Shown piece after piece: positions 13,057 through 38,844 of a DNA stretch of 38,975 nt. Below the pieces are notes generated by a model that had not been told where the DNA came from, did not search any database, and was given only the letters and a program-made list of their open reading frames with translations. The number at the start of each line of letters is the position of its first letter. Position 1 is the first letter of the stretch. A program made the translations under genes and the position numbers. The stretch is from Nostoc sp. 106C (GTDB lineage: Bacteria; Cyanobacteriota; Cyanobacteriia; Cyanobacteriales; Nostocaceae). The stretch is taken from the NCBI RefSeq assembly GCF_002154725.1, contig NZ_MTAW01000068.1, positions 1-38,975 on the forward strand, in the 5' to 3' direction.

Positions 13057-16000
13057 TTAATTGCCTGCACTTTTAAGAAATTCGCGGATTTTTTTAATTT
13101 GAAAGCCTTTGGCTAATTGCTGTAACTCTTGAAAGAAAGGAAGATATTGAACATTTAATTGTTGTAAGCGAGATGCTTCTTCAATAATTCCTTTTAAATC
13201 GCCTTGCCAGGCTAATTTTAATAGAGCAGCTATTTCTTCATTTGGGGGAAATATCAAATTTTGTTCCTCAGAATTAGATTGAGAATGAGTAACTGCTGTT
13301 GACTCTTCATAAATCCATTCTAAATCTAAATAAATTTGCAACTTTGTAAAAAGTTCTGATATCCGAATTGGTTTAGGAAGAAAGTCGTTACAGCCAATTT
13401 CTTTGCTTTTTTGTTGATCAAAATCAAAAACACTAGCAGAAGTTCCCAGAACTATAATATTCTTAAGTTCAGGCGATCGCCTAATTCTGCGGGTTGCTTC
13501 TAAGCCGCTTAATATTGGCATCATCAAATCCATTAATATACAATCTATCGGTAATTCTGCCGCTTTATTTAAGCAATCTTGCCCATCAACAGCTTCCACA
13601 ATTTCAAATCCGATTGCAGCTAGCATCTTCACTAAAATTGACCGATTTTCTAACTTATCATCAGCAACAATAATTGTGCGTTTTTTACCCTGATAACCGA
13701 TAATATTTTGGTTTATTGCTTTTACTGAATCTGGAGATTGTTCAACTTCTGGCAATTCTAAATCAAAGAAGAAATTACTACCTTTACCTAAAGTACTTTG
13801 AACCTGAATTTCTCCTCCCATCATTTGCACTAATCTGCGACTAATAGATAACCCTAAGCCTGTGCCTTCTACTTTGCGATTGTTTTCACCTACTTGGTGA
13901 AAAGGTAAAAATATATCTTGTAATTGTTCAGGAGCCATACCGACTCCTGTATCTTTTACCTGAAACCGAATCTTGTTATTGTGATAGCCAACTTTTAAAG
14001 TCACTTCACCAGATTCTGTAAACTTCACAGCATTACCGAGTAAATTAATTAAAACTTGTCGCAACCGTTTTTCATCAGCTTTCACTCCTTGAGGTAAGTT
14101 AGTTATTGGCTGATAAATTAAACCAATGCCTTTTTGTTGAGCGCGAATCCGACAAATTTCTGCAATTCCTTCCAAAAATTGGGTAAAATGAAATTCTGTA
14201 GGATACAATTCCATTTTCCGCGCTTCAATTTTGGATAGATCCAACACTTCATTAATTAGGTTTAAGAGATGATCGCCACACTGATAAATAATATTCAACC
14301 CATCTTTTTGAGAATTAGTTATATCTTTATCTCGTTGCAGGATTTGAGTGTAACCTAAAATCCCATTCAACGGTGTGCGGAGTTCATGGCTCATATTAGC
14401 TAAAAACTCACTTTTGGCATGATTAGCAGATTGCGCTGCTGCTTCGGCTTTTTGCAAATGCACATTTTTTTCTTGTAATTCCTGAGTTCGCTCTTGAACT
14501 TTTGCTTCTAAAGTGGCGTTAGCTGTCGCTAAATCACTGTAGAGGCGAGCATTTTCAATGGCAATTGCTGCTTGCGAAGATAAAAGTTTTAAAATTTCTA
14601 ATCTATCTGGAGTAAATGCTTCTGGTGTGAGATTATTTTCTAGGTAAACAATGCCACTCAGTTTTCCTTGATGGAGAAGTGGCGTACATAATACTGATTT
14701 AGGTTTTTGATTAATAATATAAGGATCTGTTGCAAAAATTCCTTCACAAATTGTATTGCTGCATAAAACATTTTCCAGGGTTCTGGCTACATAATTAATT
14801 ATTGATACAGGTAATTCATCACTAGTAGCTATTGGTTGTGATTGCATAACAATCACATCTTGTTGCTCAACTGTTGCTTTTGCTTCTATTAGCAAACTGC
14901 CATCTATCTCTAAGATCAGGTGTCCAGTTTGAGCGCCAGCGTTTTCTAGCACAATTTTCATTAATTTATCCAGCAATTTACTCAAAACAATTTCGCCAGA
15001 AAGAGCTTGAGCAGCTTTCATGACTGTTGCTAAATCGAGAACTTGAGAATTACTGCCAGTCGTGGCTGTTTTTGTAAAAGTATTTTCTGTATTGATGTTT
15101 GCGATGTTCTGCGATGTCTCACGACAAGCCACTTCGTGTCTACGCATAATCAATTGGGGATAGCGTGCTTCTAAATCTTTGACTTTAGCGATCGCTCCCC
15201 AATGACTATAGGCGTGGTAAGCATTAGTCATGTATGTACGGGCAATGGTTTGTTTACCCCATGACAGATAAAATTTAGCAGCAAGTTCGTGAGCGAGAGC
15301 TTCTTCGTTGATGTACTCGTTTTCTTTAGCAAGTGCGATCGCTTTGTCGTAATTTTCTATTGCCTCTACTTTTTCATCTAAAACTCGATGTCGTTCTGCC
15401 TCCACTAGATAGAATTTGTGCAGATGATTCATTGGGGCATGATGCGCCCATTTTTGCATTTTTTCTTGATTAGCTTGGACGCGATCGAGAATGGTCTGCT
15501 GCTCAGACTCTAGATTATCGTCATACACTGCCAGCCGAATTAAAGAATCGTATAAATGGAAGATAGGAATAACGGGTAATCCTACCGATGCACCTAAATA
15601 CTTCTCTGCTATAGCAGTATTCTCAATCGCTTGAGAGTAGTTTTCAAACAAATAACAAAGTAAAATTTTGTTCAAATACAAGTAGAAAATCCCCGCATTA
15701 TCATTTGCTTGCTGGTGCAGAGGCAACCTGATTTCTTCATCGTAGACTTCACCCTGGAGACAACAGGAATTTTCACTTCTTCCGAGTAGATTTAAGACAG
15801 CTTGCAAATAAATTTCTTGAAAATTAAGTGCTGTTTCTTGCTTAATTTTATAAATAGCATCTCTGTAAGTTACCATCTCTTTTTCCAGTCCAGTCAATTC
15901 TTTGCCGCTAAAGTAAGCGCAATAGGAGTATACTATTAGACCAAAAGTAGCCCATTCTAAATCTCCCGTCTCCATTCCGCTAGCGTAAGCTGACATGAAA

Positions 16001-19000
16001 GGCTCCAATGTTTCTTTGAGATGCTCTTTCCAATGTCGGGTAAATATATTTACTATGACTACTGTCTTGGCTTTAATTTCTTTAGCATTCAACTTTGACA
16101 CTAGATTTAAAGCCAATTGACCAAACTGATGACCTGAATCAATATCTCCCACAACTCCACAAAGCAGAAGACCATAATTGGCATAACCAAAGGGAGACAC
16201 CGAAGCATTACCATATTGGACAGATAATTGTACTTGTTTGCACACTGTCAAGGGCAATAGTTGTGGGGCCGCAACGTATACAGCAGCAAAGATACTTGAT
16301 AAAAGTCTGATAGCTGCTAATTTATAGCGATCGGTCATTTGAGGCAGGTCAATTAAATCCTCAATTTGCTTCCCATTTAACATTGCCGAAGTTTCCCCTA
16401 GCGCCTGCCCAATATCTGATGGGTTGGGCTGTTGGGGAAACTCTATCCCTAACAGCTTTAAAACTTCTAACGCTATATTAACTGCTTCTAGAAGCTTGTT
16501 CTGCGATACGTAAGCTTGAATCTGGACTTCATAGACTTTAACTTTGTCCAGCAGCGTTTTAGCATGGTTTTGTACTATCTCAACAAACCTGTGCATTCCG
16601 ACAAAATCACCACTCAAAAAAGCTGCCTCTGTTGCTTCTGAGTACAGTGCCAATGTCAGTTCATATTCACACTTCCAGCTTTCTTCTGCTAGCAGTCCTA
16701 AACCAACTTGTAAATATTTGATGGCAGAATCGTGCGCTGTTGCTGCTTTAGCTTTTTGCCCGGCTATGAGGTTTAGTTGAGCTAGTTCATATTTTTCTGA
16801 CTCAGATGTGAGTAGTTCCGTACCGTAATTGAGTTGATTAACTAGTGCAAATATGTTTTCTTTGCGTTCTTCTGGCGTTGCACTTTGCAGCAGTAATTGA
16901 CCTATTCTCAGGCGCGTTTTTTTCTTCTGCTCATCAGGAATCATAGAATACGCTGCTTGCTGCACGCGATCGTGCAAGAATCTGTATGTGATTGTTTGAG
17001 ATGTATGAATTAATTTTACTACTTTATCTACCCTATTTTCTATTTCCTCTCGATCAATTAATAGGGGTATTTTGTATGAATCATTTAAAGTAAAAATTAA
17101 ACCTTCTTGCAGAGCTTCCCATAAATCTGCTGCTGTTTGGGACTGACTTGTTTGATTAACAGTTGCCAAAACTTCTAAAGTAAATTTATCTCCAATACAA
17201 GCTGCTATTTTTAAAACATTAATTGTCCGTGATGATAGCTTTTGGATTTGGCTAACCATCAAGTCAACAACATTATCTGTATTATGAATATCTTTTAGCC
17301 GCTCAATATCCCATTGCCATCTACCTTCAAAAAAATTAAAGTTTATTAAATTTTCCTGGTACAGATATTTGAGTAATTGAGTTAAGAAAAAGGGATTACC
17401 TTGGGTTTTGTTAAATACTAACTCAGCTAGCGATTTTACTGCTACATTGCTGCTACGTAGAGTATCTGCAACTAACTGATTAACACAATCAATATTCAAA
17501 GTTGTGAGAACAATATTATTGATGGTATTCCTAATTAACCGAATTTGCTCAAGGGTATGAACTAAAGGATGAGTTGCATTGACTTCATTATCACGATAAG
17601 CTCCAATTAATAATAAATATTCGCTATCTGCGTCGGTAATAATTAGCTCGATTAACTTCAAAGAAGCTGAATCTGCCCATTGTAAATCATCTAAAAATAA
17701 AACTAGAGGATGTTCTCGTTTAGTAAAGACATGAATAAACTGTTGAAATACCCGATTGAAACGATTTTGCGATTCTGATGCGCCTAATTGTAATACCGCA
17801 GGCTGAGAACCAATAATCCGTTCTACTTCTGGTATCACATCTATAATTATCTGTCCATTTTGACCGAGTGATGCTAATAGTTTAGATTTCCAAACTACTA
17901 AAGATTCAGCACTTTCTGTTAACAGTTGCCGCATTAATTCTTGAAAAGCTTGAATTAATGAAGCATAAGGAATATTCCGTTTAAACTGATCAAATTTACC
18001 TGAAATAAAATATCCCCTCTGGCGGACAATTGGTTTATGAATTTCGTTTACTAATGAAGATTTACCAATTCCAGAGTATCCTGAAACCAGCATTATCTCG
18101 GATTGACCATTGCTGACACGCTCAAAGGCATTTAATAATGTATTGACTTCTGCTTCCCTACCATACAGTTTTTGGGGAATGATAAATTGGCTAGATAAAT
18201 CTAATTGTCCAATCGTAAATTCATCAATTTGACCATTGTTTTCTAACTGCTGTAGACATAATTGTAAATCTGCTTTTAACCCCAAGGCGCTTTGATATCT
18301 ATCTTCAGCCGTCTTAGCTAAAAGTTTCATGATGATCTCTGAAAGTACTGAAGAAATTTCTGAATTAATCTTGTGAGGTGAAGCAGGAGTTTTTGCAATG
18401 TGGGAGTGAATGATTTCTAGCGGATCATTGCTATCAAAAGGTAACAAACCAGTAAGAATTTGATAAAAGGTGACTCCTAAAGAATAAAAATCGGTACGAT
18501 AATCAAGTGACCGATTCATTCTGCCAGTTTGCTCAGGAGACATATAGGCAAGTGTGCCTTCGATTAAGTTGGGGTTGCTGATAGTTGGATTTTCTCTAGA
18601 TAATTGTGATGCAATACTAAAGTCGATGAGTTTAACAGTGAGATTTTCTGGATTAATAATAATATTTTGTGGCTTGATATCTTTATGAATAACTTGCTTA
18701 TTATGAATATTTGCTAAAGCAGATGCTAATTGAGTAGCTATAAGTAGGAAATTTTTTAATGATAATTGATGTGTATCGATAAAATGCTTGAGTGATATCG
18801 CGCTTAAATCCTCTAAAACTAGTGCAAATCCGTTTTGATGCTTTTCTAAACTTAACGGCTGAATAACTCCGGCAATACCTTTTAAGCTGTTAAGCACTTG
18901 ATATTCAAGTCTCAGTCCGGTTAACTCTTTTAAGGTGGGATATTCAGCTTTAAGTGCTTTAATGATGACTGCGGTTTGATCTACCTGTTTGATGGCGCGA

Positions 19001-19065
19001 TAAACAACGCTATCAATGCCTTCATTTAAAGTTTCTACGAAAATATAGCCAGGAAGTATTAGCAT
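13057..19065 (-). CDS. Giant Ser/Thr kinase - ATPase - TPR - GAF - histidine kinase - receiver protein
   Basis: The product has 2002 residues. The N-terminal protein kinase (1-270) has HKDIKPQN, DFS for DFG, and SPEQ; its glycine loop (LNEGIDSVVYRA) is weak. The AAA/STAND-type ATPase (about 295-560) has SGYSGIGKSSLVNEI and VLFLDDLQWADSAS. A long TPR-like helical region (about 700-1300) is followed by a GAF domain (about 1350-1520), HisKA with H near 1561 in ANMSHELRTPLNGILGYTQI, HATPase with VGMAPEQ and GTGLGLSISRRLV, a receiver with D1846 in ILMDLMMPILSG, and a helical tail. This 'trifunctional' layout is typical of filamentous cyanobacteria; the extra C-terminal receiver makes it a hybrid. 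A 27-bp repeat insertion lies in the TPR-GAF linker (see 15111-15145). Cytoplasmic, signal unknown. Confidence 0.93.
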   Translation of the reverse strand: MLILPGYIFVETLNEGIDSVVYRAIKQVDQTAVIIKALKAEYPTLKELTGLRLEYQVLNSLKGIAGVIQPLSLEKHQNGFALVLEDLSAISLKHFIDTHQLSLKNFLLIATQLASALANIHNKQVIHKDIKPQNIIINPENLTVKLIDFSIASQLSRENPTISNPNLIEGTLAYMSPEQTGRMNRSLDYRTDFYSLGVTFYQILTGLLPFDSNDPLEIIHSHIAKTPASPHKINSEISSVLSEIIMKLLAKTAEDRYQSALGLKADLQLCLQQLENNGQIDEFTIGQLDLSSQFIIPQKLYGREAEVNTLLNAFERVSNGQSEIMLVSGYSGIGKSSLVNEIHKPIVRQRGYFISGKFDQFKRNIPYASLIQAFQELMRQLLTESAESLVVWKSKLLASLGQNGQIIIDVIPEVERIIGSQPAVLQLGASESQNRFNRVFQQFIHVFTKREHPLVLFLDDLQWADSASLKLIELIITDADSEYLLLIGAYRDNEVNATHPLVHTLEQIRLIRNTINNIVLTTLNIDCVNQLVADTLRSSNVAVKSLAELVFNKTQGNPFFLTQLLKYLYQENLINFNFFEGRWQWDIERLKDIHNTDNVVDLMVSQIQKLSSRTINVLKIAACIGDKFTLEVLATVNQTSQSQTAADLWEALQEGLIFTLNDSYKIPLLIDREEIENRVDKVVKLIHTSQTITYRFLHDRVQQAAYSMIPDEQKKKTRLRIGQLLLQSATPEERKENIFALVNQLNYGTELLTSESEKYELAQLNLIAGQKAKAATAHDSAIKYLQVGLGLLAEESWKCEYELTLALYSEATEAAFLSGDFVGMHRFVEIVQNHAKTLLDKVKVYEVQIQAYVSQNKLLEAVNIALEVLKLLGIEFPQQPNPSDIGQALGETSAMLNGKQIEDLIDLPQMTDRYKLAAIRLLSSIFAAVYVAAPQLLPLTVCKQVQLSVQYGNASVSPFGYANYGLLLCGVVGDIDSGHQFGQLALNLVSKLNAKEIKAKTVVIVNIFTRHWKEHLKETLEPFMSAYASGMETGDLEWATFGLIVYSYCAYFSGKELTGLEKEMVTYRDAIYKIKQETALNFQEIYLQAVLNLLGRSENSCCLQGEVYDEEIRLPLHQQANDNAGIFYLYLNKILLCYLFENYSQAIENTAIAEKYLGASVGLPVIPIFHLYDSLIRLAVYDDNLESEQQTILDRVQANQEKMQKWAHHAPMNHLHKFYLVEAERHRVLDEKVEAIENYDKAIALAKENEYINEEALAHELAAKFYLSWGKQTIARTYMTNAYHAYSHWGAIAKVKDLEARYPQLIMRRHEVACRETSQNIANINTENTFTKTATTGSNSQVLDLATVMKAAQALSGEIVLSKLLDKLMKIVLENAGAQTGHLILEIDGSLLIEAKATVEQQDVIVMQSQPIATSDELPVSIINYVARTLENVLCSNTICEGIFATDPYIINQKPKSVLCTPLLHQGKLSGIVYLENNLTPEAFTPDRLEILKLLSSQAAIAIENARLYSDLATANATLEAKVQERTQELQEKNVHLQKAEAAAQSANHAKSEFLANMSHELRTPLNGILGYTQILQRDKDITNSQKDGLNIIYQCGDHLLNLINEVLDLSKIEARKMELYPTEFHFTQFLEGIAEICRIRAQQKGIGLIYQPITNLPQGVKADEKRLRQVLINLLGNAVKFTESGEVTLKVGYHNNKIRFQVKDTGVGMAPEQLQDIFLPFHQVGENNRKVEGTGLGLSISRRLVQMMGGEIQVQSTLGKGSNFFFDLELPEVEQSPDSVKAINQNIIGYQGKKRTIIVADDKLENRSILVKMLAAIGFEIVEAVDGQDCLNKAAELPIDCILMDLMMPILSGLEATRRIRRSPELKNIIVLGTSASVFDFDQQKSKEIGCNDFLPKPIRISELFTKLQIYLDLEWIYEESTAVTHSQSNSEEQNLIFPPNEEIAALLKLAWQGDLKGIIEEASRLQQLNVQYLPFFQELQQLAKGFQIKKIREFLKSAGN
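15111..15145. repeat. 27-bp dispersed element between GCGAT and CGC, inside the giant kinase gene
   Basis: GCGAT (15111-15115), a 27-bp body (15116-15142, containing CACGACAAGCCACTTCGTGT) and CGC (15143-15145). The body matches those at 20633-20659 and, inverted and one base shorter, 38401-38426. It is in frame and encodes roughly residues 1307-1319 (RRHEVACRETSQ), in a linker between the TPR region and the GAF domain. Confidence 0.75.
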
Positions 19066-33302: not shown

Positions 33303-33369
33303 TCGCATACTCAAAATGTAGATATCTGCCAGTTTAGCCTTCCTGTTGGACTTCTCCGGTTCAAATCTC

Positions 33370-34971
33370 ATGATGAGTAACCAAAATCAAACTCGGAAAA
33401 TCCTACTTTTATCCGCAAATCCCAAAGGTAGCAGCCAACTTCGTCTGGGTGAGGAAATGCGCGAAATTAAGGAGGGGTTGAAAAGGTCAAGGAATCGTGA
33501 CCAATATTCTATTACTACAGCAGAAGCAGTACGCTACAGGGATATACACAGAGCTATTTTAGAATACGAACCCCACATTATTCATTTTTCTGGACATGGG
33601 ATAGGAGAAGAAGGCTTAGTATTTGAAGATGAATCGGGTCAAATTAAGTTAGTTGATGCTGAGGCTTTAGCTGGGCTATTTCAACTATTTGCTGACCAAG
33701 TACAATGTGTGGTTCTCAATGCCTGTTACTCTAAATACCAAGCTTTGGAAATAGCGCGACATATTAATTATGTTGTTGGCATGAGTCAGCAAATTGGCGA
33801 TCAAGCAGCAATTGAATTTGCAGTGGGTTTTTATGATGCACTTGGCGCAGATAAAGGTTATGAGTTTGCTTATAAGTTAGGTTGCAGCTTGATTCGTGTA
33901 GCTGGGATACCAGAGAACCTGACACCTAAATTAATGACTACAAGAGATACAGCATTCTTAAATTCTTCAGCAGCGAAGACAATATATATAGAAAGACCGC
34001 CAATTGAGGAAAAATGTTGTGCGGCAATTTTACAACCGGGAGCGCTAATTCGCATTAGATCGCCGCAGAAAATGGGGAAAACATTGCTATTGGAGAAAGT
34101 ACTAACTCATGCTAGAGAGCAAGGTTATCAAACAGCAAAACTAGATTTACAACTTGCTGATATTAATATCCTGGCTGATACCAAAACATTTTTACAATGG
34201 TTATGTGTTGATGTTTCCGACAGCCTAGAAGTAGAACCCCAATTAGATAAATACTGGCAAGAAGTTTTTGGGCTTAATAAAAACTGCACTCGTTATTTTC
34301 AAAAATATTTATTAGCAATTACTGATAATCCTCTAGTTTTAGCTATAGATAACTTTGAGCGACTCTTTGCATATCCAGATATTTTTCCCCAATTCTGTTT
34401 ATTACTGCGGGGATGGTATGAAGCAGCTAAACAAGGAGACAAAATTGGTAATCTTTGGAAGAAACTGCGATTAGTTGTAGTTCATTCCACTGAAGCTTAT
34501 CCTACTTTAGATACCAATCACTCACCATTTAATGTGGGAATCGCAATTGAGTTACTCGAATTTAACGTGCAACAAGTAGAATCTTTAGCCAAGCAGTATG
34601 AATTAGCAGATAAGTTGGGAAAACAAGATTTAAGTGAGTTGATGGGGTTAGTAGGCGGACATCCCGATTTAATCCAGCAAGCTGTTGCTTATCTCAAAAA
34701 TCCCCAAGCTAGTATAGAAGAACTTTTGCAACTTGCACCAACAGAACAGGGAATTTTTAGCGACCATTTGCGACAACAATTGTGGCATTTACAACATAAT
34801 TTTCTGCTTGAGTTGGGGTATAAAAATGTAGTAATGGCCAATGTGCCTGTCCGGTTAGATACTGAGGTAGCATTCAAGTTACATAGTTTAGGATTGGTAA
34901 AACTTTCAGGTAATGATTGTGTTCCGAGTTGTGAATTATATCGTCAGTATTTCTCAGTGCGTTTAGGGTAA
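33370..34971 (+). CDS. CHAT peptidase fused to an AAA-like ATPase
   Basis: The product has 533 residues from ATG 33370 (a second ATG follows at once; a TTG at 33346 is less likely). The N-terminal CHAT domain (1-185), a caspase-clan peptidase, has RKILLLSANPKG, the catalytic His H76 in IIHFSGHGIGEEGL and the catalytic Cys C119 in VVLNACYSKYQ, both in canonical positions. The C-terminal part (205-533) is an AAA-like domain of the AAA_35 type: PPIEEKCCAAILQPGALIRI, a Walker-A-like SPQKMGKT (231-238) lacking the first glycine, and a Walker B in LVLAIDNFERLF. No membrane helix. A strong hairpin and 66 nt separate it from the second AAA-like gene on the same strand. I infer a signal-activated protease with an ATPase switch. 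Confidence 0.85.
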   Translation: MMSNQNQTRKILLLSANPKGSSQLRLGEEMREIKEGLKRSRNRDQYSITTAEAVRYRDIHRAILEYEPHIIHFSGHGIGEEGLVFEDESGQIKLVDAEALAGLFQLFADQVQCVVLNACYSKYQALEIARHINYVVGMSQQIGDQAAIEFAVGFYDALGADKGYEFAYKLGCSLIRVAGIPENLTPKLMTTRDTAFLNSSAAKTIYIERPPIEEKCCAAILQPGALIRIRSPQKMGKTLLLEKVLTHAREQGYQTAKLDLQLADINILADTKTFLQWLCVDVSDSLEVEPQLDKYWQEVFGLNKNCTRYFQKYLLAITDNPLVLAIDNFERLFAYPDIFPQFCLLLRGWYEAAKQGDKIGNLWKKLRLVVVHSTEAYPTLDTNHSPFNVGIAIELLEFNVQQVESLAKQYELADKLGKQDLSELMGLVGGHPDLIQQAVAYLKNPQASIEELLQLAPTEQGIFSDHLRQQLWHLQHNFLLELGYKNVVMANVPVRLDTEVAFKLHSLGLVKLSGNDCVPSCELYRQYFSVRLG

Positions 34972-34976
34972 TACCC

Positions 34977-35009
34977 AGATCCCCGACTTCTTCAAGAAGT
35001 CGGGGATCT
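34977..35009 (+). terminator. Strong palindromic hairpin between the CHAT and GUN4 genes
   Basis: AGATCCCCGACTTCTT (34977-34992) and its perfect complement (34994-35009). The GATCCCCGACTTCTT palindrome is a widespread cyanobacterial intergenic repeat. No T-tract follows, so it may slow rather than stop transcription into the next gene. Confidence 0.6.
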
Positions 35010-35037
35010 AAATCCAATGACAAATAATCAATGACAA

Positions 35038-37614
35038 ATGACAAATGACCACTATCAATTCTCTGGAAGTCTACCGGAAAATGCCAGCACCTACGTCACA
35101 CGCCAAGCTGACAGTGATTTGTATGCAGGACTAAAAGCAGGAAAGTTTTGTTATGTCTTGAACTCCCGACAAAGCGGAAAGTCTAGCTTGCGTGTGCGAA
35201 CCATGCAAAGACTCAGAGAAGAAGGTGTACAATGTGCAGCAATTGACCTTTCCGCTGGCGGTATTCAAAATGTCCCTCCCGAACAATGGTATGCAGATTT
35301 AATTGATAATTTAATTGAAAGTTTTGGCTTAGATGTAGATTTTGGTGATTGGTGGGAGGCGAATCAGTTAAATTCCTTGGTGACAAGATTTCGTAAATTT
35401 TTAGAAGATATATTACTTGCTGAAGTTAAAGAAAATATTGTTATTTTTATTGATGAAATTGATAGTGTACTCAGCCTCAAATTTCCCACCGATGACTTTT
35501 TTGCCTTGATTCGTGCCTGTTATAACAAGCGTGTTGATAATCCTGAATATAATCGTCTCACCTTTTGTTTGTTGGGAGTCGCATCACCTAGCAATTTGAT
35601 TGAGGATAAACAACGCACTCCGTTTAATATTGGTCAGGCCATCTCGTTGACTGGTTTTCAATTGCATGAAATTGAGCCGTTAGCAAAGGGGATATCAGGG
35701 AGATTTTCTAACCCTGAAGTAGTAATGAAAGAAATTTTATATTGGACAGGAGGACAACCATTTCTGACGCAAAAGCTGTGTCAGTTTATGATTGAAGAAT
35801 CTTTTGCAGACAATCCTCGCACTGTTGAGCAGGTGGTGAAGTCGCGGATTATTGAAAATTGGGAATCTCAAGATGAGCCTGAGCATTTACGAACGATTCA
35901 AGCCAGAATTTTGCGAGATGAACAACGGGCTGGATATTTACTAGAACTGTATCAGCAAATTCGCTTGAGGAATGAGCAATCTGAGATTACAGCCGATGAT
36001 ACTTTAGAGCAAAGTGAGTTACAGCTTTCAGGATTGGTTATTAGGCAGCAGAATAATTTAAGAGTTTATAATCCCATATATCAAGAAGTTTTTAATCAAA
36101 ATTGGATAGATAATCAATTAAAAAATCTGCGCCCATATTCAGAGAATTTCCGCTTTTGGGTGGCTTCACAAGGAAATGATACATCACGATTATTGCGGGG
36201 AAAGGCTTTACAAGAAGCTGAAGTATGGGCAAGAGATAAGAGTTTAAGTTATCAAGATAGGCAGTTTTTAGCAGCTAGTAAAGAGCAAGAAATTCAGGAA
36301 GATATTGCTGCGAAGGAACAAGAAGCTGCTTTAGAGAGAGAGAGAAAAGATAAGGAAGCAGCGGAGAAAATAAATCTGACACTGACTGAAGCTAATCAAA
36401 AACTAGCTGAAGCAAATCAGAAAGCTCAAAAACGTATTCGCATTGGTTCGGTTGTTTTAGTGCTGACTTTATTGGGAGCAGTAATTTCTATAATTTGGGC
36501 AGGTAAGGATATTCAAGATATACGAGAAAATACTAAATATGTCTCACAATTATCCAAACTGAGCGAAGAACTTTATAAGAAAGACAAATCATCTTCAGCG
36601 AGCCAGGCGAGGGAACAAATAGGTTTATCTTACGAAATTAAAAATCATGAATTAAAAAAAGCAATGCTATTTACTTCCATGTCTCAAGCATATCAGCAAC
36701 TTGAACAATGGGAACAAGCTGAAAAAGAGATTAGAGCAAGTCAAAAAATTTTAGAGGCAGATAAAAATTTTATTACTTCTAGTGAAGCGTTACAAATTCA
36801 AGTTTTTGCTGATAAGGTTAAAGGTGATTTACTATCGCATAAAAAAGAAATAAACCAAGCTGTAGAATCTTATAAATCAGCATTTGAAATTCTTAATAAG
36901 AATCCAGAGCAAACTAGTCCATTTACAAAAAGTAACCAATTGCTTGCTGCCGAAGATGTTGAAGCTGTTCATCGAAATTTACTTAATTTACTTTCAACGA
37001 ACACTCAAGCAGCAGAGTTGAGAAAGCAGGTAAAAAAATCTCTAACCCAACATTTATATGCTCAACTTGAGTATTCTTTGAAAGCTAAAAATTGGCGAAA
37101 AGCTGACGAAATAACTTTGCAGATGCTCCTCTATATTGCTAATAGAGAAAAAGAAGGTTTCCTTGATTATCCACAAATAGAAAACTTTTCCTGTCCTGTT
37201 CTTAAACAAATTGATGATTATTGGTTGCAAAACTCAGAAGGACATTTTGGTTTCAGCGTGCAAAAGAAAATTTGGTTAGATACAGGAAATAGACTGGGTG
37301 TTAAACTAAAAGATTGGAACGATAATGATAAACGAAATTATATTCGCTTCGCAAGTACAGTCGGGTGGTACAATGACAACAAATACGATCAAGTGTCTGG
37401 CTGGATGCCATACGACGAGTATATAAAGCGTATAATGGAAAACCCTATGAATCCTTCTGTGAGGGGTGGGATGCCAACTAGTGTTGAGCGTTATAGGGGT
37501 ACCGACATCTTAGAGATTAAATATCGTGATAGTAGTACTGTTGAAAATCCCACTTATACAGCAACGCGTGCAGATGTCTCGAGAGTTCTTCTCTCGTTGC
37601 GTTGCGGTCTATAA
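35038..37614 (+). CDS. AAA-like ATPase - transmembrane - TPR-like - GUN4 protein
   Basis: The product has 858 residues. The AAA_35-type ATPase (1-365) has Walker A NSRQSGKS (42-49) and Walker B IVIFIDEID (134-142), with WTGGQPFLTQKLCQFM in the helical lid. The NLRPYSENFRFWVASQGNDT linker that usually precedes repeats in these proteins follows. A charged coiled coil (410-465) is followed by one membrane helix (468-487), a helical TPR-like segment (about 530-690), and a GUN4 domain (about 670-800) with VLKQIDDYWLQNSEGHFGFS and VQKKIWLD; the tail RVLLSLRCGL fits the end of GUN4 domains. GUN4 domains bind porphyrins and activate Mg chelatase; fused forms are thought to act in signalling. The ATG lies in a TGACAAA repeat tract and could be misplaced by a few codons. 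Confidence 0.88.
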   Translation: MTNDHYQFSGSLPENASTYVTRQADSDLYAGLKAGKFCYVLNSRQSGKSSLRVRTMQRLREEGVQCAAIDLSAGGIQNVPPEQWYADLIDNLIESFGLDVDFGDWWEANQLNSLVTRFRKFLEDILLAEVKENIVIFIDEIDSVLSLKFPTDDFFALIRACYNKRVDNPEYNRLTFCLLGVASPSNLIEDKQRTPFNIGQAISLTGFQLHEIEPLAKGISGRFSNPEVVMKEILYWTGGQPFLTQKLCQFMIEESFADNPRTVEQVVKSRIIENWESQDEPEHLRTIQARILRDEQRAGYLLELYQQIRLRNEQSEITADDTLEQSELQLSGLVIRQQNNLRVYNPIYQEVFNQNWIDNQLKNLRPYSENFRFWVASQGNDTSRLLRGKALQEAEVWARDKSLSYQDRQFLAASKEQEIQEDIAAKEQEAALERERKDKEAAEKINLTLTEANQKLAEANQKAQKRIRIGSVVLVLTLLGAVISIIWAGKDIQDIRENTKYVSQLSKLSEELYKKDKSSSASQAREQIGLSYEIKNHELKKAMLFTSMSQAYQQLEQWEQAEKEIRASQKILEADKNFITSSEALQIQVFADKVKGDLLSHKKEINQAVESYKSAFEILNKNPEQTSPFTKSNQLLAAEDVEAVHRNLLNLLSTNTQAAELRKQVKKSLTQHLYAQLEYSLKAKNWRKADEITLQMLLYIANREKEGFLDYPQIENFSCPVLKQIDDYWLQNSEGHFGFSVQKKIWLDTGNRLGVKLKDWNDNDKRNYIRFASTVGWYNDNKYDQVSGWMPYDEYIKRIMENPMNPSVRGGMPTSVERYRGTDILEIKYRDSSTVENPTYTATRADVSRVLLSLRCGL

Positions 37615-37936: not shown

Positions 37937-38140
37937 ATGAAAATAAAAGCAATTATTCATCCAGCAGAAGAAGGTGGCTATTGGGCTGAAGTTCCAGCAC
38001 TTCCTGGTTGTATTACTGAAGGTGAGACAATGGAGGAGGTATTAATAAATTTAAAAGATGCAATAGAAGGCTGGTTAGAAGTCGCAAATAGTAGTCACAA
38101 ACTGGAATCAAATGCTCAAATTGTCGAGATTGCAGTATGA
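37937..38140 (+). CDS. hicB: HicB-type antitoxin
   Basis: The product has 67 residues, the short form. It begins MKIKAIIHPAEEGGYWAEVP, then ALPGCITEGETMEEVLINLK, then DAIEGWLEVAN, the degenerate RNase H fold of HicB. A C-terminal DNA-binding helix is not present, so DNA binding would need the complex or another protein. The stop TGA overlaps the hicA ATG by four bases (ATGA). HicB precedes hicA here, the reverse of E. coli order but common in cyanobacteria. No clear Shine-Dalgarno. Confidence 0.88.
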   Translation: MKIKAIIHPAEEGGYWAEVPALPGCITEGETMEEVLINLKDAIEGWLEVANSSHKLESNAQIVEIAV

Positions 38141-38346
38141 AATCAATCTCTGGTAAAAACCTATGTAAAATTGTCGAACAGCGCGGTTGGGTTTTACAGA
38201 GAATTACAGGTAGTCATCACATTTACCAAAATTCTGATTTTAATAAAATACTTTCTATTCCTGTTCATCGAAATCAAGACTTGAAAATCGGGACTTTAAG
38301 AGCATTAATGAAAATCGCCGATCTAACGGAAGAAGATTTGATGTAA
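38137..38346 (+). CDS. hicA: HicA-type mRNA interferase toxin
   Basis: The product has 69 residues. It begins MKSISGKNLCKIVEQRGWVL and has the key QRITGSHHIYQ, whose histidine (H27 or H28) is the catalytic residue of this dsRBD-like ribonuclease. VHRNQDLKIGTLRALMKIAD closes the fold. It cleaves mRNA and arrests growth when HicB is lost. Length is normal and the gene looks intact, overlapping hicB by four bases. The pair is bracketed by 21-bp repeat units, suggesting that it travelled as a unit. Confidence 0.9.
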   Translation: MKSISGKNLCKIVEQRGWVLQRITGSHHIYQNSDFNKILSIPVHRNQDLKIGTLRALMKIADLTEEDLM

Positions 38347-38440: not shown

Positions 38441-38844
38441 CTACCAAATAGTCACAATTGTAGTTAAAGCTTGAATTCGCAAACCACGAGTCACCAAGGG
38501 AATACCTAAAGAAAAAGCGGTAGCTGCAATAATCCTATCAGGCATATCAGGAACCGTTGCCCTGTCAATTTGTCTAATAATTCCTGAAATATTGCGAGCC
38601 AGAGGTACAAGTACAATGCCAACATTGGATCATCCAACGCATTTAAAATTCGTGTAAGCACTTCTTGGGCAAATCTTCCTCTCTCAACTAAATAAGAAAT
38701 CTCTATGATTGTGATAGCTGATATGTAAATAGGATTACCCACATTAACTGCTTGTTCCAATGCTGTTAATGCTGTTTCGGATAGTCTATCTACGTCAAAA
38801 ATGTACCAAATTAAAGCGTGTGTATCTGCTACTACTGATGTCAT
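38441..38844 (-). pseudogene. PIN-domain toxin (VapC-like), frameshifted
   Basis: The N-terminal frame reads MTSVVADTHALIWYIFDVD, then ISAITIIEISYLVERGR, up to about position 38635. The C-terminal part lies in another frame: LVPLARNISGIIRQIDRATV, then PDMPDRIIAATAFSLGIPL, ending TIVTIW with a TAG at 38441-38443. Together they make a full PIN protein of about 133 residues, with the acidic residues of VADT, IEIS and MPDR. One single-base indel near 38600-38635 breaks it. The ATG overlaps the stop of an antitoxin tail by one base, so this was a toxin-antitoxin pair. Inactive unless the frameshift is programmed or a sequencing error. Confidence 0.75.

Follow-up and report, generated by a model that had tools for sequence, protein, structure and literature searches.

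STAND receptors are mostly known as single chains with effector, ATPase and sensor, and Avs3, Avs5 and RPP1 hold all three parts in one polypeptide. In a 38,975-nucleotide stretch of Nostoc sp. 106C (contig NZ_MTAW01000068.1; the whole stretch analyzed is referred to as the window), two adjoining plus-strand open reading frames, ORF1 and ORF2, have ATPase regions with the STAND-like fold of these proteins (Foldseek) but split effector and sensor over two chains. ORF1 (33370..34971, 533 amino acids from its ATG) combines a caspase-fold CHAT peptidase module with an AAA_35 domain that we term type A, and ORF2 (35038..37614, 858 amino acids) combines a second AAA_35 domain, type B, with a coiled coil, a transmembrane (TM) helix, a helical TPR-like region and a GUN4 domain. 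The pair is a real, conserved two-gene unit, and we consider it fairly probable that its products form one split transmembrane signaling unit, made up of a membrane receptor and a cytoplasmic CHAT output. The nearest concept is nSTAND2, a two-gene system of two STAND nucleoside triphosphatases (NTPases), one of them eroded and effector-fused (Kaur 2021, PMC8195603). The likeness lies in adjacent genes that each encode a STAND NTPase, with erosion and a variable effector on one side of the pair (PMC8195603). However, the nSTAND2 NTPases are, according to their authors, nearer to CR-ATPases/Dap3, whereas the ATPase regions of ORF1 and ORF2 reach only the AAA_35 cut-off; the nSTAND2 effectors are GT4/HEPN, whereas the type A proteins that showed a further domain in our Pfam scans carry CHAT, TIR, kinase, cyclase or helix-turn-helix (HTH) domains; and a membrane receptor with exchangeable sensors is absent from the section of PMC8195603 that describes nSTAND2. 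At E ≤ 1 neither ORF1 nor ORF2 matched an nSTAND model in Pfam, a negative that holds only as far as Pfam covers nSTAND2.

Other described systems share single features with the pair. EACC1 is a two-gene TM caspase system (Kaur 2020, PMC7159879), similar in having two genes, a TM component alongside a caspase-fold peptidase and many interchangeable domains, but EACC1 itself is a small TM domain without an ATPase, whereas ORF1 and ORF2 both carry AAA_35 and the TM protein is an AAA_35-GUN4 protein in place of the EACC1 component. Coupling of GUN4 to a caspase-fold peptidase is known from three cyanobacterial metacaspases with GUN4 (Asplund-Samuelsson 2012, PMC3501461) and, together with GUN4-kinase fusions, from a study that predicted tetrapyrrole sensing by GUN4 fusions (Kaur 2020, PMC7159879); these are single TM-less polypeptides in the cases examined, whereas here there are two genes and a TM helix before GUN4. 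The structure of SAVED-CHAT (8tl0) matches the ORF1 peptidase in Foldseek with about 25% identity, but its CHAT is fused to SAVED, whereas that of ORF1 shares its chain with a STAND-like ATPase and has another ATPase encoded by the adjoining gene. A survey of WD40 proteins lists a Nostoc gene row of two WD40 proteins, a hypothetical protein and a CHASE2 sensor (PMC5587647), which could be an A-B locus. The literature searched, which excluded supplements and most subscription papers, yielded no description of the AAA_35 pair, nothing relevant on AAA_35 or PF14516 among the matches listed and no paper on CHAT with GUN4 in cyanobacteria; a description of the pair may be in print elsewhere.

The pairing was assessed by searching an alignment of CHAT-AAA_35 proteins against a genome collection of 84,980 species, which gave at least 571 pattern matches, at least 546 of them confirmed. 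The best 80 loci of these at least 546, all cyanobacterial by title, were kept, a sample chosen for CHAT. Of the 80, 62 have CHAT and type A AAA_35 within a single open frame, with type A intact in 56, and a type B partner adjoins or is fused to 51 of these 56 genes. In 47 cases a type B gene follows on the same strand no more than 2 kb downstream (three of these partners, L156, L165 and L166, are fragmentary or broken, and L140 has its CHAT part divided between frames); the remainder comprise three with type B upstream, one fusion (L183, 1118 amino acids), three at a contig end and two with no partner. Among the six loci with a partial type A domain, two are fused, two are at contig ends and two have no partner. 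GUN4 is carried by 14 of 50 separate type B partners, and a single shortened frame (L141) holds CHAT, A and B parts, TM and GUN4. AAA_35 itself is common in the order, being present in 109 of the 120 genomes sampled. At L113/L054 (G105), the type B gene next to a CHAT-A gene is itself split by an inverted 569-amino-acid frame, perhaps an insertion element. An initial annotation, made from the letters of the window, had described two adjacent same-strand genes, each with an AAA-like ATPase, and had proposed that they are coupled; both genes do carry AAA_35, they lie 66 bp apart, and far from being rarely neighbors, homologues of ORF1 are paired in the counts given above. Coupling of ORF1 and ORF2 is likely, the proposal being well supported by kept adjacency, the natural fusion L183 and co-evolution of the partners.

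The co-evolution analysis used 136 adjacent A-B pairs, of which 27 with repeated sequence were removed. Across the remaining 109 pairs, distances between A domains correlate with those between B domains (r = 0.827). Restricted to the 57 pairs from the 22 genomes that have several, the correlation is 0.750, and shuffling partners within genomes gave a mean r of 0.337 (sd 0.076, maximum 0.564), with 0 of 2000 shuffles reaching the observed value; genome labels in this pairing test were entered by hand, and a genome under two names was counted twice, with repeated sequences removed. The A-B pairs thus co-evolve above the genome background, which at the level of sequence points to long co-inheritance as a unit. 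Spacing within the pair varies: L134 and L144 have the start of the second gene within a few bases of the first gene's end, in the close relative L133 heptamer-like repeats occupy the gap, and in the window the gap holds a palindromic hairpin repeat (34979..35007, no strand assigned). The latter is a dispersed repeat with 55 forward and 54 reverse copies in the genome at up to two mismatches, largely the same sites since the sequence is palindromic, and is absent from the list of the terminator scan. Both gap insertions look secondary. The promoter/terminator scan was uninformative, with 9 and 3 sites found against 15.2 and 3.5 expected. An alternative in-frame TTG start at 33346 would extend ORF1 by eight amino acids.

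The domains outside the ATPase pair are exchanged. In Pfam samples, type A proteins carry CHAT, CHAT with TIR, protein kinase, guanylate cyclase or HTH as output domains, TIR without CHAT being seen with a hidden Markov model (HMM) built for this analysis, and type B proteins carry WD40, CHASE2, Peripla_BP_6/ANF_receptor, MORN, kinase with COP23, or GUN4. The type A sample comprised nine of the 12 complete frames without a labeled N-terminal domain, plus L183, with no further domain in L073 and L231; the type B sample comprised nine of the 38 complete frames below 1000 amino acids without GUN4 or CHASE2, plus L164, with no further domain in L140 and L107. The neighborhood labels GUN4, CHAT, TIR, HTH, CHASE2 and type A/B come from small HMMs of our own, some built from a single sequence, and the "HTH" N terminus of A proteins from Nostoc sp. 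106C is our guess, Pfam HTH not being found there; L085 is the only sampled A protein with HTH above the Pfam cut-off. Exchange is also visible between close homologues: four Nostoc plasmid A proteins are 75-79% identical to the ORF1 ATPase with a different N terminus and no CHAT, and in Nostoc HK-01 a CHAT domain 70% identical to that of ORF1 sits, with TIR, on an ATPase that is 41% identical. This exchange of outer domains around the ATPase pair fits the sensor/effector arrangement suggested in the initial annotation. In the first ~130 amino acids, the A proteins of L246-L249 replace CHAT with a region that starts rich in Gly and Asn and probably includes a coiled coil (no Pfam family reached the cut-off in the N-terminal region of L246, the one of the four scanned), and on Nostoc plasmid p057_H (L248, 2146-8170) CHAT and GUN4 are encoded by separate genes immediately upstream of an A-B pair. 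In L226, L227, L228, L229, L232 and L241, regions chosen for this feature, a single type A gene has two or three type B genes after it, an arrangement that would suit an output shared by several receptors.

The CHAT module of ORF1 (33370..33954) scores 44 bits against PF12770 (cut-off 24), and the following AAA_35 domain (33970..34956) scores 411 bits against PF14516. His76 (codon 33595-33597) and Cys119 (codon 33724-33726) are present, at the positions given in the initial annotation, and both are invariant in 50 aligned CHAT-AAA_35 proteins; when 83 CHAT plus type A frames, among them truncated and broken ones, were searched for the two motifs, 65 had both, 16 had one and two had neither. 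The Pfam match and the His/Cys dyad identify a putative peptidase. The AlphaFold2 model of ORF1 has a mean predicted local distance difference test score (pLDDT) of 88.2 and a predicted TM-score (pTM) of 0.64, and its ATPase matches archaeal AAA+ 2fna, the plant NLR RPP1, Avs3 and Dark in Foldseek with query TM-scores of 0.31-0.41. No family was above the cut-off in an NCBIfam search. Both ATPases of the pair belong with AAA_35 and STAND-like proteins, as judged by PF14516 scores above the cut-off, the P-loop Lys, a GGxP motif and the STAND-like fold. The Nostoc sp. 106C genome has 45 CHAT matches in total.

An alternative is an anti-phage or abortive infection system, in which the pair would sense invasion and CHAT would kill or arrest the cell. 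The sources consulted (PMC7159879, PMC10907252) present CHAT and TIR as characteristic outputs of conflict systems, the folds resemble Avs3 and Avs5, copies occur on plasmids, HicBA and PIN genes adjoin the pair, and PADLOC matches ORF1 to its chat model. However, the PADLOC matches (chat and SAVED_CHAT for ORF1, and PD-T4-6 across the GUN4 region of ORF2) are to single proteins only, with no two-gene system or known anti-phage system matched by ORF1 and ORF2, and the kinase, cyclase and HTH outputs, together with CHASE2 and periplasmic-binding sensors, fit general environmental signaling. A role in defense is a credible minority interpretation, which we would rate somewhat below an even chance.

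ORF2 scores 110 bits for AAA_35 (35062..36096) and 90 bits for GUN4 (PF05419, cut-off 29.2; 37018..37488), where the core FGFSVQKKIW is kept. Between a long helix and the helical TPR-like linker (36505..37002, helices of the predicted model with TPR_8 below the Pfam threshold) lies the one hydrophobic segment, at residues ~469-487 (36442..36498), in line with the membrane helix and the GUN4 domain first annotated. Five basic residues on its N-terminal side and three on its C-terminal side predict N-in, C-out; TM and positive-inside calls were made with our own hydropathy script, and the coiled coil is taken from the predicted model. Foldseek matches include the STAND-TPR protein 6mfv, ORC proteins, Avs3 and Avs5, and the GUN4 structure 7e2r (rank 44, E 3.3e-3, TMt 0.61), in agreement with assignment as a GUN4 domain. 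All 18 type B-GUN4 proteins, L141 among them, have a TM segment ahead of GUN4, with the N-terminal side more basic in 12, equal in five and less basic in one. In a set of 95 type B proteins, all complete and distinct, the ATPase is followed by a TM-like segment in 79 (N-terminal side more basic in 64, equal in eight, less in seven). Because the ATPase needs cytoplasmic ATP, the C-terminal domain would be outside if the helix spans the membrane, and the GUN4 domain of ORF2 is probably located outside the cytoplasm. That location agrees with the CHASE2 and periplasmic-binding domains that take the place of GUN4 in relatives, and with PG_binding_1 following GUN4 in L251, the sole case in the set searched. 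In L251 (6812-10204), three PG_binding_1 stretches follow the type B-GUN4 part, and the partner is a CHAT-TIR-AAA_35 gene.

These results bear on the suggestion in the initial annotation of a membrane-tethered tetrapyrrole or stress sensor. In a cytoplasmic version of the tetrapyrrole reading, the helix would only anchor or hairpin the protein while GUN4, inside, reads porphyrin or bilin to control CHAT. Intracellular tetrapyrrole sensing has been proposed for GUN4 fusions (Kaur 2020, PMC7159879), and TM-less fusions of GUN4 with caspases (four proteins of the same genome), a kinase and, in two other genomes, CHAT are consistent with it. However, loss of the LxNxLR motif (Asn211 in Synechocystis) has been linked to loss of bilin binding (Rockwell and Lagarias 2023, PMC10156173), and among the aligned GUN4 domains only the stand-alone GUN4 of the genome (L213, LSNQLR) retains the motif at its site, from which it is gone in ORF2 and the other copies (L141 and L181 have matches at other positions); ORF2 thus lacks the signature of a bilin-binding GUN4. 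Since Chlamydomonas GUN4 N219G lost bilin binding and retained porphyrin binding (PMC10156173), this loss does not exclude porphyrins. Porphyrin-binding residues include Synechocystis Phe196 and Arg214 (PMC8967248). Of the pocket residues whose retention the initial annotation had left to be checked, the bilin motif is gone, and at the porphyrin sites ORF2 has Tyr in place of Phe and its nearest Arg is out of alignment register. The loss of the bilin motif, the invariant TM ahead of GUN4, the PG_binding domains in the one L251 protein and the sensors that replace GUN4 in relatives make a cytoplasmic tetrapyrrole sensor unlikely, and on the motif loss and the predicted topology the original tetrapyrrole proposal is unsupported; the GUN4 domain of ORF2 may sense something other than tetrapyrroles. 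The TM-less caspase(C14)-GUN4 proteins of Nostoc sp. 106C, four in number, are L214-L217.

The two ATPases differ at Walker B. The initial annotation had contrasted an incomplete Walker A in ORF1 with a complete one in ORF2, but the leading Gly is missing from both (SPQKMGKT, 34060-34083, and NSRQSGKS, 35161-35184) and across the family, being present in four of 130 type A and none of 120 type B sequences that are ungapped at this site (three gapped each). At Walker B, ORF1 has Asp-Asn (34348-34353) and ORF2 Asp-Glu (35452-35457); Glu occupies this site in 123 of 123 type B rows and 87 of 133 type A rows, the other type A residues being Asn (25), Asp (10), Lys (9), Gly (1) and Ser (1). Asn is found in all nine of ORF1 and the eight L133-L144 orthologues with intact A and a GUN4 partner. 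The suggested division into one regulatory and one active ATPase thus retains the Walker B contrast as its sole basis, because the cited Walker A contrast does not exist. A hydrolysis-poor output ATPase is plausible from these residues for the ORF1 subfamily, and is not the rule for type A. That type A is an inactive ATPase in general was considered and rejected on the type A Glu count.

It is very improbable that ORF1 and ORF2 are neighbors without joint function, their shared AAA_35 being a tandem duplication that remained linked: the A and B domains are homologous, function is not provable from adjacency alone and the window has a repeat in the intergenic gap, but the domains share only ~24% identity and form separate types across the order, outer domains are exchanged while the partners remain paired, and the tight spacing in L134 and L144, the L183 fusion and the pair co-evolution all point to a unit.

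Several observations nevertheless weigh against a split transmembrane signaling unit. Adjacency is looser for type A and type B genes of any output domain than for CHAT: for the best type A hit in 30 genomes, type B is within 1.5 kb downstream in 18, in opposite orientation in two and missing in 10, and for the best type B hit in 29 genomes, type A is upstream (within 1.5 kb, same strand) in 22 and missing in seven, the misses including any hits that lie at contig ends. In the window itself the hairpin repeat separates the two genes, and adjacency and co-evolution indicate co-inheritance and do not prove contact. The Foldseek matches of both ATPases have low query TM-scores (maximum 0.41), and the AlphaFold2 model of ORF2 is weak overall (mean pLDDT 79.3, pTM 0.47, TM region pLDDT below 50). 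GUN4 fused to caspase, kinase or CHAT comes without a TM segment, which is absent from all 10 GUN4 proteins checked outside type B, the positive-inside signal of the type B-GUN4 proteins is modest, and 16 of the 95 type B proteins lack a TM-like segment. Finally, the Walker B Glu is retained by the majority of type A proteins, and Glu (3) or Asp (3) stands at this site in six other CHAT proteins partnered with GUN4, so inactivity of the output ATPase does not generalize.

The split transmembrane unit that we favor draws on the domain layout, the catalytic residues, the conserved pairing and co-evolution of the partners, the exchange of modules and the Walker B asymmetry, all observed here. ORF2 would be the receptor, with a cytoplasmic type B ATPase, one spanning helix and an extracytoplasmic helical/GUN4 sensor, and ORF1 the matched cytoplasmic output, a type A STAND-like ATPase bearing the CHAT peptidase. 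A change at GUN4, either a ligand or a wall or membrane state, would switch the nucleotide state of the ORF2 ATPase, which would then engage the ATPase of ORF1, a contact that we infer; with Asn in place of the Walker B Glu, ORF1 may hold ATP without good turnover. Engagement would lead to assembly or release of the CHAT peptidase and cleavage of a target. The direction from receptor (ORF2) to protease (ORF1) is probable.

Beyond the pair, the window encodes HicB-like antitoxin and HicA toxin genes directly downstream of ORF2 (37937-38346), followed by a PIN-domain gene on the opposite strand (38506-38844), and, at 13057-19065, a 2002-amino-acid protein kinase-AAA_16-GAF-histidine kinase-receiver protein adjoining a receiver/histidine kinase gene.

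More broadly, and as a tentative proposal only slightly short of an even chance, the pairs might represent a cyanobacterial modular split transmembrane NLR-like system, in which a constant STAND pair (A cytoplasmic, B in the membrane) is combined with CHAT, TIR, kinase, cyclase or DNA-binding outputs and with extracytoplasmic GUN4, WD40, CHASE2 or periplasmic-binding sensors, sometimes with several receptors per output; the window would hold the CHAT/GUN4 version, with GUN4 turned extracytoplasmic sensor and an output ATPase without the catalytic Glu. If so, a two-chain form of STAND receptor with its sensor across the membrane would couple outside cues to caspase-like proteases, one output could be served by several sensors, and GUN4, a protein of the chlorophyll pathway, would be found in an unexpected place.

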